A DNA stretch of 64,000 nt, taken from assembly GCA_947629455.1 (NCBI GenBank), contig CANRDT010000003.1, positions 1 to 64,000 of the forward strand. The letters are read 5' to 3'. The stretch comes from an uncultured Ruminococcus sp. GTDB lineage: Bacteria > Bacillota > Clostridia > Oscillospirales > Ruminococcaceae. The position numbers were made by a program, and so were the translations under genes. The notes under the pieces were generated by a model. That model was not told the origin of the DNA. It saw only the letters and a list, made by a program, of their open reading frames with translations, and made no database searches. Shown piece after piece: positions 7,769-64,000 of the stretch (its first letter is position 1; each line of letters starts with the position of its first letter).

Positions 7769-7833
7769 CCCCTTTCCATAACTTCATTATATCAAAAAAT
7801 TATTAAGAAGTCCTTAAACCGAGAATGAAAAGC

Positions 7834-8105
7834 CACGGAAATCAATTTTTGATTTCCGAAGAAGTCAGAACGCTACGCTTTTAAGAGGTAAGAGGTAAGA
7901 CAATGAGCGCCTGCGGCGCATATTTTAAAATATTATTCCGCGCAGTTTTGGAAGATTTTTGTTATATTTTCCGCCGAAGGCGGAAAATATAACATTAAAT
8001 TATTTTTCCTCCGCCGACGGCGGAGGAAAAATAACACAAAAGTCAACCTGAACAAGTTAAAGTATATTAAAATGCTTACATATAATTTAAAAATTGATTT
8101 CCATG
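7834..8105. repeat. MITE-like element, chimeric copy (copy A)
   Basis: TIR CACGGAAATCAATTTTT ... AAAAATTGATTTCCATG; perfect 10-bp direct repeat AATGAAAAGC at 7824-7833 and 8106-8115; two internal palindromes (GTTATATTTTCCGCC-GAA-GGCGGAAAATATAAC and TTATTTTTCCTCCGCC-GAC-GGCGGAGGAAAAATAA). Confidence 0.85.
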
Positions 8106-8210
8106 AATGAAAAGCTTTTTTAATAATAACGTGATAATTTATCATAAAAAACATTCCCCCTCCGCGGAGAATTTTCCGCAGCGGGGGATAAAACTTTTAA
8201 AACATCTGCG

Positions 8211-23713: not shown

Positions 23714-25471
23714 ATGACTTTAAAAGTAAATAAGCCGGCGCTTGCGGCGGCAACGGCAGGTCTTATGACTATGTCGGCTATGTCGGCGTTCTCACTTGCA
23801 GGATCAGCCGCGCAGAACAGCGAGATCACCCTGTCGGCGGACAAGCTCACCGCCTCGGCAGGCGATATGGTAAACGTAAAAGTGGGATTTGAACCGGGCG
23901 ATACGGGCGCGGCAGGATTCACGATCGACCTGCATTACGATCCCGACAAGGTAGACGTCTATATCCCGAACAGTACTGAGCTTTCTTCAAAGTACGATGT
24001 CGGCAGCAAATTCTCCGTAATTGCCAACTATTCCTCCGCTCCGGGCGAGGTGAGAATAGTCGGCGCGAACCTTTCGAGCGACAACATTACCTCCGATACC
24101 GATCTTGCTCTTGCAAGCTTTAAGGTAAAGGACGGCGCAAAAGGTGATCTGGATTTCTGGGTGGAAGTAGATACTATCGTCTCGGCAAGCGACGACGGAT
24201 TTGTCAACGCGGCATATTCCGCTCCGACCGAAAGTTCGCCGTTTACTGTCAGCGTTCCCGAAAAGACCGTGACAAAGGCGACGACAACTACGACCGCCGC
24301 GGCAACGACAAGCGCCACCACTACAAAAGCCGAGACTGTATCTACCACGGCAAAGCCTACCACCACAAAGGCTGAGACTGTGTCCACAACGACAAAGCCT
24401 ACCACCACAAAAGCTGAGACTGTGTCCACAACGACAAAATCCACCACCACAAAAGCCGAGACCGAATCCACAACATCAAAAGCTACTACCACTACAAAAG
24501 CCGAGACCGAATCCACAACGGCAAAAACCACTACCACTACAAAAGCGGTAACGACCACACAGCCGCAAACTTCCGAGGAAACGGAAAAGCCGCAGGTGAC
24601 GACTGTTCCTCAGTCCACCCCGGAGAGCAATACCGCCGAGCAGCAGACAACGCATGCGGAAAAAGTTCCCGAAGATGAGCAGCTGCCGACCTCACCCGAG
24701 GTAAACGACAGTGATGTGGATAGCTCCAGCGACGAGCAGACAAGTCTGTTCAGCTACACTCAGGGAGATACGGATTTCAATTCCGAGGAAGATCTCAGCT
24801 ATTCGTTCAGTCTGGACGACTACATAACCGATTATTCCAGAAATTACAACATCAGCGTTGACATAAGCACTACGGGCAATGTGAACGGCGGCATTGGTAT
24901 GAATGTCGGCGGCGAATGGGTATCTTTCCGCAGCACTTCCCATTATGTGGACAAAGACGTCTGGACCGCGGAAAATATCGACCCCAACAAGACGGGCAAT
25001 GATGTTTTCGTGCAGCTTTATTATCTCAAAGCAAATGCGACGTTCAGCATAGACGCTATCACGGTCGAGCCGACCGAAACTGTTTCTGCACCGACGGATC
25101 AGGACGATGAACAGACTCCCCTGCCCGAGGAACAGCCGCAGGTCAGTGAAACCACGGATAATACGAATGATACGGATAACACATCAGACGAGCAGTCTGC
25201 GGAGAATGATAATGCAAACGGCGCAGACGCAGATAATTCCGACGACACCGCAGCGCCTTCGACAGGCGAAGAGCAGACAGCAGACCCCGAGGTCATAGAA
25301 GAGGCAGTAGACAGTGCAGCGGCGGAGGCTGACAGTCAGCCTGATCACAATCCCACTACCGGCAGCAAGGCAAGTCCGATAAAGTTTTTGCTTATGCTTG
25401 CCTGCCTTGGCGAAATTGCATGGTCACTGTTCGTAACGGTATTCAACCGTCTGAAAGGCAGATCGGAATAA
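23714..25471 (+). CDS. Cohesin-domain surface protein with Thr-rich repeat and NPTTG-type C-terminal sorting-like signal
   Basis: Signal peptide; cohesin-like domain (ITLSADKLTASAGDMVNVKVGFEPGDTGAAGFTIDLHYDPDKVDVY...); TTTKAETVSTTTKP repeats; C-terminal NPTTGSKASPIKFLLMLACLGEIAWSLFVTVFNRLKGRSE. Confidence 0.85.
   Translation: MTLKVNKPALAAATAGLMTMSAMSAFSLAGSAAQNSEITLSADKLTASAGDMVNVKVGFEPGDTGAAGFTIDLHYDPDKVDVYIPNSTELSSKYDVGSKFSVIANYSSAPGEVRIVGANLSSDNITSDTDLALASFKVKDGAKGDLDFWVEVDTIVSASDDGFVNAAYSAPTESSPFTVSVPEKTVTKATTTTTAAATTSATTTKAETVSTTAKPTTTKAETVSTTTKPTTTKAETVSTTTKSTTTKAETESTTSKATTTTKAETESTTAKTTTTTKAVTTTQPQTSEETEKPQVTTVPQSTPESNTAEQQTTHAEKVPEDEQLPTSPEVNDSDVDSSSDEQTSLFSYTQGDTDFNSEEDLSYSFSLDDYITDYSRNYNISVDISTTGNVNGGIGMNVGGEWVSFRSTSHYVDKDVWTAENIDPNKTGNDVFVQLYYLKANATFSIDAITVEPTETVSAPTDQDDEQTPLPEEQPQVSETTDNTNDTDNTSDEQSAENDNANGADADNSDDTAAPSTGEEQTADPEVIEEAVDSAAAEADSQPDHNPTTGSKASPIKFLLMLACLGEIAWSLFVTVFNRLKGRSE
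24317..24548 (+). repeat. Intragenic tandem repeat of about 42-45 bp, five or so units
   Basis: Units of ACCACNACAAAAGCNGAGACNGNNTCNACNACGNCAAAGCCT encoding TTTKAE(T)(V/E)STT(T/A)K(P/S/A/T). Confidence 0.9.
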
Positions 25472-28668: not shown

Positions 28669-28740
28669 TGCAATTCACCTGCCGGTCATAGATATTAAAA
28701 TCGGTATAACAAAGACCGCCGCACAACAGCGGCGCACGGT

Positions 28741-28925
28741 CATTGAAATCAATTTTTACAAAATTGATCTTAAAAAAACAAGATTTTCAGAGACAAGAAG
28801 CAAGAAAAAAGTCTGCAAAGCGGAATAATATTTTAAAATATTCGCCGTAGGCGCTCCTTGTCTGACCTCTTACCTCTTAAAAGCGCAGCGTTCTAACTTC
28901 CGGAAATCAAAAATTGATTTCCGAG
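28741..28925. repeat. MITE-like element, type-1 copy B (inverted relative to copy C)
   Basis: Flanked by perfect 10-bp direct repeat GGCGCACGGT at 28731-28740 and 28926-28935; terminal AAAAATTGATTTCCGAG; body near-identical in reverse complement to 34841-35023. Confidence 0.85.
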
Positions 28926-28976
28926 GGCGCACGGTCTTGATTCATTGCCGCAGAACGGCGATCGTTTATCCTTGAT

Positions 28977-34506: not shown

Positions 34507-34840
34507 TCACCTCTTGATCGCAATTCAGATATTCTTACCAAACTCATAGCAAAATCCGCTAAAGATCTCACAAAAAGTTGAATATATGATTTTCGGGAGA
34601 TCATTCTGCGGAAGTTTACATCTGCTTTGTATATATATAATTTTAACAAACTATTATGTTTTTTGCAATAGTTTTTTATAGAATTTACATTTCTTGAAGT
34701 ATTTTTGGAACACGTTACAAATTACTGTAAGAATTTAGTTGATTTTTGTGCAACTTCACAATTGCGAAATATTGTGTATACGTTTACATAACAAATGCCG
34801 CCCAATGCGGCAAAGGCATTTTAATTCCTCGGGCTTAAAC

Positions 34841-35023
34841 CACGGAAATCAATTTTGATTTCCGTAGAAGTCAGAACGCTGCGCTTTTAAGAGGTAAGAG
34901 GTAAGACAAGGAGCGCCTGCGGCGCATATTTTAAAATATTATTCCGCTTTGCAGACTTTTTCTTGCTTCTTGTTTCTAAAAATCTTGTTTTTTAAGATAG
35001 ATTTTGTTAAAATTGATTTCCAT
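34841..35023. repeat. MITE-like element, type-1 copy C
   Basis: CACGGAAATCAATTTTGATTTCCG ... AAAATTGATTTCCAT; flanks GGGCTTAAAC (34831-34840) and CGGCTTAAAC (35024-35033), 9/10 match. Confidence 0.85.
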
Positions 35024-35110
35024 CGGCTTAAACTTTTACGCCTTGAAATGCCTGCGCTTTTATGTTATAATACAGTATATTAAATGACAGAATTTTGCGA
35101 GGTTTGAAAA

Positions 35111-37070: not shown

Positions 37071-37290
37071 CAAGGAATTCAATTTTAAAATTTTGTGTAA
37101 GCATTTTTTATGCAGGCGGTTATATTTCATTGAATAAAGGAATCTTTTTTGCTGTTTTCCTCGCCAACGGCGAGGAAAACAGCTTTTAGTGTATATTTTC
37201 CGCCTGCGGCGGAAAATATACCCCGAAACAGACTATTTTCCCCAATGGGGGGGAAAACAGTATCCGTAAAGTTGAAAATTGATTTTCGTG
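37071..37290. repeat. MITE-like element, type-2 copy E
   Basis: Left end CAAGGAATTCAATTTTAAAATTTTGTGTAAGCATTTTTT, right end GAAAATTGATTTTCGTG; internal palindromes GCTGTTTTCCTCGCC-AAC-GGCGAGGAAAACAGC and GTATATTTTCCGCC-TGC-GGCGGAAAATATAC; degraded direct repeat at the ends. Confidence 0.75.
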
Positions 37291-39269: not shown

Positions 39270-39588
39270 GAAGTAAGAGGTTAGAGAAAAGAGGTAAGAA
39301 ATGCTTATTGTGACCTTGTACCGCAATAAATTCAAACCGCCCGATTTGCAAGGTCTGACCGCGCCGCACATTGCAGAGGGCGACAAGCGCGCCCGCGCGA
39401 GGGCAGACTTTTTTGTTATTTTTCCTCCGCCAGCGGCGGAGGTCCTCCCGGACGGGGCATTTCCGCCCGTCCACGGTGCATATCGATTCGCCTTTATAAA
39501 TGGGGCGGAGAAAGTTTTTTGGCATTTTGCTGAAATATACAAAATATAACAATAAGGCTAAATATACCCTCATAAATTGATTTCCGTG
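39270..39588. repeat. Degenerate MITE-like modules, copy N
   Basis: Contains AGAGGTAAG modules, TTATTTTTCCTCCGCC-AGC-GGCGGAGG, CGGAGGTCCTCCCGGACGGGGCATT and right end AAATTGATTTCCGTG. Confidence 0.6.
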
Positions 39589-47266: not shown

Positions 47267-47416
47267 TACAAATCAACTTTTCAAAAAGCTGCTATTCCAA
47301 ATGGGGATAACTTGTTTTGTGAGTATATTTTCCGCCGCAGGCGGAAAATATACACTAAAAGCTGTTTTCCTCGCCGACGGCGAGGAAAACAGCAAAAATG
47401 CTGATTGATTTAGTGG
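47267..47416. repeat. MITE-like element, type-2 copy F (degenerate ends)
   Basis: GTATATTTTCCGCC-GCA-GGCGGAAAATATAC and GCTGTTTTCCTCGCC-GAC-GGCGAGGAAAACAGC, the module order of copy E reversed; degenerate TIRs. Confidence 0.7.
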
Positions 47417-54547: not shown

Positions 54548-54715
54548 GCATGGAAATCAATTTTTGATTTCCAGAAGTTAGAACGCTACGCTTTTAAGAG
54601 ATAAGAGGTAAGACAAGGAGCGCCTGCGGCGCATTATTTTTAATATTAGTTCGCTTTGCAGACTTTTTTCTCGCTTCTTGTCTCTAAAACTCATGTTTTG
54701 GGAAATCAATTCTCT
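54548..54715. repeat. MITE-like element, type-1 copy D (right end degraded)
   Basis: CATGGAAATCAATTTTTGATTTCCAGAAGTTAGAACGCTACGCTTTTAAGAGATAAGAGGTAAGACAAGGAGCGCCTGCGGCGC parallels copies B and C. Confidence 0.75.
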
Positions 54716-54745
54716 AAGGCTGTTTGATACGATATGTCGGGCGGT

Positions 54746-56579: not shown

Positions 56580-56598
56580 GTTTTTGGGAGGGTATTGA

Positions 56599-56811
56599 AC
56601 GGAATTGAATTTTATAAGAGTGCTTTTAGTCTTATAATTATATTTCGCTCAGTCCGGCGAGATTTTTGTTATATTCTCCGCCTGCGGCGGAGAATATAAC
56701 ATTAAATTATTTTTCCTCCGCCAACGGCGGAGGAAAAATAACCCAAAAGTCTGCATTACCAAGTAAAATAAATTAAAATGCTTACATAAAATTTTAAAAT
56801 TGATTTCCGTG
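56599..56811. repeat. MITE-like element, type-2 copy J
   Basis: Ends ACGGAATTGAATTTTAT ... ATTTTAAAATTGATTTCCGTG; palindromes GTTATATTCTCCGCC-TGC-GGCGGAGAATATAAC and TTATTTTTCCTCCGCC-AAC-GGCGGAGGAAAAATAA; flanking GGTATTGA at 56591-56598 and 56814-56821. Confidence 0.8.
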
Positions 56812-56822
56812 ATGGTATTGAC

Positions 56823-57121
56823 AGGGAAATCAATTTCTTCTTTTAGGTATGTTACAGCCGCCGTAAACGGCGGCTGTAACAAATGCCGCCCCGACTAAGG
56901 GGACGCCCTCTCTTACAGGTCGTCCCCTCTTTCAAAACAGTCCACCGGACTGTTTTGAAATTCACCCCTTGCGGAGCGCAGACGGTTGGGGCTTTCGCCG
57001 TCTGCGGACGGCGACAAGGGACGCTGTCCCTTGACCCTGCAAGCCTTTTTTAGGAAAAGGCTTGACCGAAAACCTTTTCTTGATTCCGACGTTACTTCCT
57101 CCACAACTGCGGAGCGTGAAA
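56823..57121. repeat. Array of consecutive hairpins (non-coding), about 300 bp
   Basis: GTTACAGCCGCCG-TAAA-CGGCGGCTGTAAC (56851-56880), TTCAAAACAGTCC-ACC-GGACTGTTTTGAA (56931-56959), AAGGGAC-GCT-GTCCCTT (57016-57032), AAGCCTTTT...AAAAGGCTT (57041-57063). Confidence 0.8.
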
Positions 57122-57275
57122 TCAATATGCTGAGCATTGTCCCATAAATGACGACTTGACCGCAAAAATAAACGTTTTGAAGATATACACAAAATATCAC
57201 TTGCATTTTTTCAAGATAAGTGATATAATATACTTTGTCGTTATATTGCTGTTAAAAGGAGGCGGCGTAGGTACA

Positions 57276-63845: not shown

Positions 63846-64000
63846 CAAGGAGTTCAGTTTTGAAATTTTGTGTAAGCGTTTTTTATCTTAGGTAATTGGC
63901 AGCTTTTTTGGTTATTTTTCCTCCGCCGCAGGCGGAGGAAAAATAATTTAATGGTATATTCTCCGCTGTTAGCGGAGAATATACACCAAAAGCCGACTAT
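63846..64000. repeat. MITE-like element, type-2 copy M (truncated by window end)
   Basis: CAAGGAGTTCAGTTTTGAAATTTTGTGTAAGCGTTTTTTATCTTAGG parallels copy E left end; TTATTTTTCCTCCGCC-GCA-GGCGGAGGAAAAATAA and GTATATTCTCCGC-TGTTA-GCGGAGAATATAC palindromes. Confidence 0.75.

Follow-up and report, generated by a model that had tools for sequence, protein, structure and literature searches.

The 64,000-nucleotide stretch analysed here (the window: positions 1 to 64,000 of contig CANRDT010000003.1 from an uncultured Ruminococcus sp.) carries members of a large MITE family, which was very probably moved in trans, by cut-and-paste or similar DDE transposition, by a transposase of the ISAs1 family. A sequence-only reading of the window had proposed non-autonomous MITEs mobilised in trans, and this proposal is supported by flanking duplications, an empty orthologous site and full-length IS elements with identical ends. 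The family hinted at in the same reading, IS4/IS231-like, did not hold up, as the transposases found with these ends match ISAs1 at 265-287 bits and the most frequent duplication length is 9 bp.

The elements end in the 16-mer CACGGAAATCAATTTT. At up to three mismatches, this sequence has 17 matches in the window where 1.55 are expected, and 0 shuffles reached 17, so the shared inverted ends that had been read from the window are genuine. As the reading had advised, the search was extended to the whole assembly, which comprises 2.04 Mb in 54 contigs and is 86% complete. It yielded 188 terminal inverted repeat (TIR) ends at up to one mismatch versus 0 for a reversed control pattern. Exact GGAAATCAATTTT alone occurs 133 times in the assembly, several contigs of which terminate at these repeats, and the copy number in the genome is about a hundred. 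From the stretches around the listed TIR ends, a sample rather than a whole-genome census, 52 paired copies were obtained, two further pairs having been discarded because their ends belonged to separate copies. These span 93-384 bp, sit essentially between genes and contain no transposase gene. With lengths below about 600 bp, a 16-bp TIR, target-site duplications, many dispersed copies and, for one copy, an empty site, the family has the properties by which MITEs are recognised.

Within the window, copy A (7834-8105, forward strand) is a 272-bp mosaic consisting of module a, hairpins H1 and H2, and module d, with full-length copies at 92% identity elsewhere. Its left TIR (7834-7849, forward strand) is exactly CACGGAAATCAATTTT, while its right TIR (8090-8105, reverse strand) has one mismatch. 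The exact flanking 10-mer reported for this copy is indeed present on both sides as AATGAAAAGC (7824-7833 and 8106-8115, 10/10 identity). The same applies to copy B, a 185-bp a-b element on the reverse strand (28741-28925), which lies between two exact copies of the 10-mer GGCGCACGGT (28731-28740 and 28926-28935). Two further copies stand as elements, but their limits had to be adjusted. Copy C, a 184-bp a-b element on the forward strand, was read as 34841-35023 with a 9/10 duplication, but it ends at 35024 and is flanked by the exact 9-mer GGCTTAAAC (34832-34840 and 35025-35033). Copy J, a 214-bp g-H1-H2-d element on the forward strand, was read as 56599-56811, also with 9/10, but it starts at 56598 and its duplication is AGGGTATTG/ATGGTATTG, identical in 8 of 9 positions. 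In addition, an older 220-bp copy is found at 37071-37290 (duplication GCTTTCACA/GTCTTCACA, 7/9), and the left part of a 210-bp copy at 63846-64000 continues to contig position 64055 (duplication CATAATGCC/TATACTGCC, 7/9; right TIR at C3:64040-64055). A truncated a-b copy on the forward strand retains only its left TIR (54549-54719, right limit approximate). At 39402-39588, a partial or degenerate copy combines an H2-type hairpin, module N and a g-type end; it has one TIR (39573-39588), and no left end was found.

Other repeats were observed in the window as well. A second dispersed repeat of about 285-300 bp directly adjoins copy J at 56841-57140; the same genome holds some 20 copies of it or more, 86-94% identical, and others are found in the same-genus genomes G006, G001 and G011, often at contig ends. 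At 47316-47393, an H1-like hairpin is followed by a GCTGTTTTCCTCGCC-type hairpin with no recognisable TIRs, which is either the remnant of a MITE or a pair of hairpins independent of the family. Tandem repeats of about 42 bp (24303-24537) lie within the ORF at 23714-25471, the Thr/Lys-rich product of which resembles a surface-protein linker.

Transposition is indicated first of all by the flanks. Exact duplications of 8-10 bp border 29 of the 52 paired copies (9 bp in 18, 10 bp in eight and 8 bp in three), whereas shuffling the right flanks among copies in 2000 trials gave 0.57 on average and never more than 4. The duplications predicted for copies genome-wide are therefore present. At an identity of at least 75%, a duplication is recognisable in 43 of the 52 copies, leaving nine without one at this threshold. 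Among the sampled copies, no duplications swapped between copies lacking their own were detected. The length of 10 bp given in the sequence-only reading should be corrected to 8-10 bp, mostly 9. Since each length corresponds to a distinct register of the left and right flanks, this variation is real and not the result of chance extension.

The second line of evidence is an empty site, another check that had been proposed. The genes flanking the copy at 37071-37290 are syntenic in two same-genus genomes (G003 and G009), and this is the sole copy for which a comparison could be made. When the 220-bp element and one 9-mer are removed, the flanks align without gaps from CTTTCAC to AGTATAATA in both relatives, in which the target is present once. 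The empty-site evidence thus concerns one old copy, with a duplication of 7/9, and relatives that share only about 70% identity in coding DNA. Most intergenic sites are not comparable, because the relatives are too divergent, being approximately 65-80% identical in coding DNA. For copies B and C, the synteny comparison showed that the flanking genes are not neighbours in the relatives. Intragenic insertions were also considered as base-exact empty sites; the joined flanks gave frames resembling antisense noise, with no convincing interrupted gene.

Regarding age, the median identity of a copy to its nearest neighbour is 92%. For five copies of 214 bp, the nearest neighbour lies at another site and differs by a single base, and one difference in 214 bp between different sites points to recent mobility. 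Recent and old insertions coexist in the family.

The interiors of the elements are modular. The ends fall into no fewer than four modules (a, b, g and d), every one terminating in the same 16 bp, and these occur in the pairings a-b, g-d, a-d, a-g and a-a. Among the 52 copies, the a-b architecture is found in 14 and g-H1-H2-d, the type of copy J, in 13, followed by a-H1-H2-d in four, including copy A; hybrids in which a is joined to g or to a second a are rarer. H1 and H2 are near-perfect hairpins in the middle of the element. In the fold of copy A, H1 (7962-7995, forward strand) is formed by TTATATTTTCCGCC GAA GGCGGAAAATATAA, and the terminator-like H2 (7999-8035, reverse strand) has a 17-pair stem. 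Both copies A and J fold far better than shuffled sequences (z = -9.3 and -10.4, respectively). In about nine of the MITE copies, a distinct sequence, module N, is lodged within the hairpins or next to them. At 39427-39530 of the window it appears as a G+C-rich repeat with GGACGGGCGGAAATGCCCCGTCC, and it is possibly an element in its own right, with the MITE hairpins as its target.

The mosaic interiors probably arose by recombination between copies. Many mosaics, copy A among them, keep their own duplications, which indicates that they moved as mosaics. The family may evolve combinatorially, with the transposase pairing the ends of different neighbouring elements or with recombination at the shared hairpins continually building transposable hybrids; we consider this a plausible scheme, held tentatively and at somewhat less than even confidence. 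The interiors of copies A, B and J have no match in the fetched loci of other species with the same TIR, and copy A has none in 40 relatives, so the interior looks lineage-specific.

The strong hairpins of copies A and J, the terminator-like shape of H2 and the essentially intergenic placement would also suit static repeats, of the REP/ERIC-like or terminator-hairpin kind, that are kept for regulation and are immobile, with the TIRs being part of a long stem-loop. We regard this as extremely improbable, since duplications far beyond chance, an empty orthologous site and near-identical copies at unrelated sites all speak against it. Moreover, the copies match no Rfam family and show no gene-orientation bias, with 21 in tandem, 10 in convergent and 10 in divergent contexts according to a rough ORF-based call. 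The duplications refute static repeats as the sole explanation. H2 could still serve as a terminator in addition, but this possibility has no support.

The identity of the mobilising enzyme is suggested by full-length IS elements with the same TIR, the search for which had been recommended as well; all three of those found belong to ISAs1. The first, on contig C31 of a same-family genome (G034), is 1230 bp long, has CACGGAAATCAATTTT exactly at both ends and encodes a 372-aa transposase. This protein scores 287 bits against the NCBIfam ISAs1 model NF033564 (cutoff 70) and matches the Pfam domains DDE_Tnp_1 and DDE_Tnp_1_assoc (PF01609 and PF13808) above cutoff. The second is located on plasmid pRUMAL01 of Ruminococcus albus 7 (NC_014824.1, 88346-89575; WP_013483367.1) and is again 1230 bp long with both 16-bp TIRs exact. 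It carries GTAAATGTA on both sides, an exact 9-bp duplication, and its transposase is 85.5% identical to that of G034. The third, from Treponema vincentii OMZ 806, is a 1236-bp IS with both TIRs exact, an exact 9-bp duplication and a transposase that is 52% identical. With the same cutoff of 70, the three transposases score 287, 285 and 265 bits against NF033564. A D in IDGK/LDGK, a D in VVADALNCQ and an E in EWSVESMHW are invariant in all three, and these are the putative DDE catalytic residues.

ISAs1-family elements generate duplications of 8-10 bp according to their ISfinder description. Both the IS copies of R. albus 7 and T. vincentii (9 bp, exact) and the MITEs (8-10 bp) fit this range. 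In the proposed mechanism, an ISAs1 transposase would recognise the 16-bp ends CACGGAAATCAATTTT and join them to staggered cuts 8-10 bp apart, mostly 9, in intergenic DNA, after which gap repair by the host would create the flanking duplication. Counting against an ISAs1 partner, the MITEs and the IS share only the TIR of about 16 bp, and the former need not descend from the latter by internal deletion. For instance, the IS of R. albus 7 resembles the MITEs in having the same 16-bp TIR at both ends and a 9-bp duplication, but it is 1230 bp long with a 372-aa transposase, and the interiors are unshared.

Alternatively, the MITEs could be mobilised by an IS4/IS231-family transposase, to which CA-ATCAA-like ends and duplications of 10-12 bp would belong. 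The ends of IS231 begin with CATG and contain ATCAA, its duplications are 10-12 bp, and eight of the 29 exact duplications of the MITEs are 10 bp long. Nevertheless, we judge this alternative highly improbable, as every full-length element found with exact ends encodes an ISAs1 transposase. Furthermore, the duplications range from 8 to 10 bp with a mode of 9 and none of 11-12 bp in the genome of the window, which also holds no PF01609 protein. Membership of the transposases themselves in IS4/IS231 was considered and rejected: ISAs1 lies above its cutoff, and the only other model match, IS1634, falls far below its own.

While the reading had reported no transposase in the window, none of the ISAs1 type was detected in the whole 86%-complete assembly either, and a search with PF01609 (DDE_Tnp_1) gave none. 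Likewise, 15 same-genus genomes contain no intact transposase of this kind, with a 51-residue fragment in one of them only (G014). This leaves three options for the partner in this species: absence from the draft alone, loss, or supply by an external source. Given that the assembly is 86% complete and that several contigs end at MITEs, the IS could be missing from the assembly. An ISAs1 transposase that was since lost, or that is missing from this assembly, probably moved the copies in the genome of the window. In a separate genome of the same family (G020, 100% complete), 28 ends with the same TIR are paired at about 190-208 bp and no ISAs1 transposase was detected; this is a further MITE family whose partner is not resident.

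The absence of a transposase from the available assembly, the median nearest-neighbour identity of 92% and the many imperfect duplications are also what would be expected of relics, moved by an ISAs1 element that is now extinct in the lineage and immobile today. We consider this possible, at roughly one chance in three, but some copies that are one base apart in 214 have intact 9-bp duplications, which argues for recent movement, and an IS may be hidden in the part of the genome that the assembly lacks.

As for distribution, MAGs and genomes of Ruminococcus, Lachnospiraceae, other Clostridia and Treponema contain the same ends, which are frequently paired at the distance of a MITE and bordered by exact duplications of 9 bp. 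Since this spacing is also seen outside Ruminococcus, in each of the other three, the group is widespread.

Several known systems are comparable. IS231 and the mobile insertion cassettes of the IS4 family include non-autonomous derivatives moved in trans, as is proposed here. The ends of IS231 are loosely similar to those of the MITEs, whereas its transposase family and duplication length differ. Elements of the Tn3 family, including TIMEs, give 5-bp duplications. TIMEs are Tn3-derived mosaic mini-elements (PMC4133298) that are also non-autonomous, miniature and able to form mosaics, but they have Tn3-family rather than ISAs1-type ends. Bacterial MITEs of the IS-derived, TIR-sharing class, such as MITEAba12 (PMC6382973) or those described in Anabaena sp. 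90 (PMC3542288), are likewise short and non-coding, with inverted ends and many, mostly intergenic copies. The Anabaena sp. 90 MITEs are reported to match no IS TIR of their own genome (PMC3542288). In the accessible text of the open-access literature searched, no precedent for an ISAs1-linked MITE was found. A large ISAs1-linked MITE family with modular interiors can thus be regarded as a new family of an already known kind of element.

These results tie an abundant, unnamed intergenic repeat of a Ruminococcus-like gut and rumen lineage to a specific transposase family, and the repeats account for genome fragmentation at the sites where they occur. The IS transposase of R. albus 7 and these MITEs form a ready test pair. 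The mosaic structure is the most interesting part, as such interiors make the diversification of MITEs testable.
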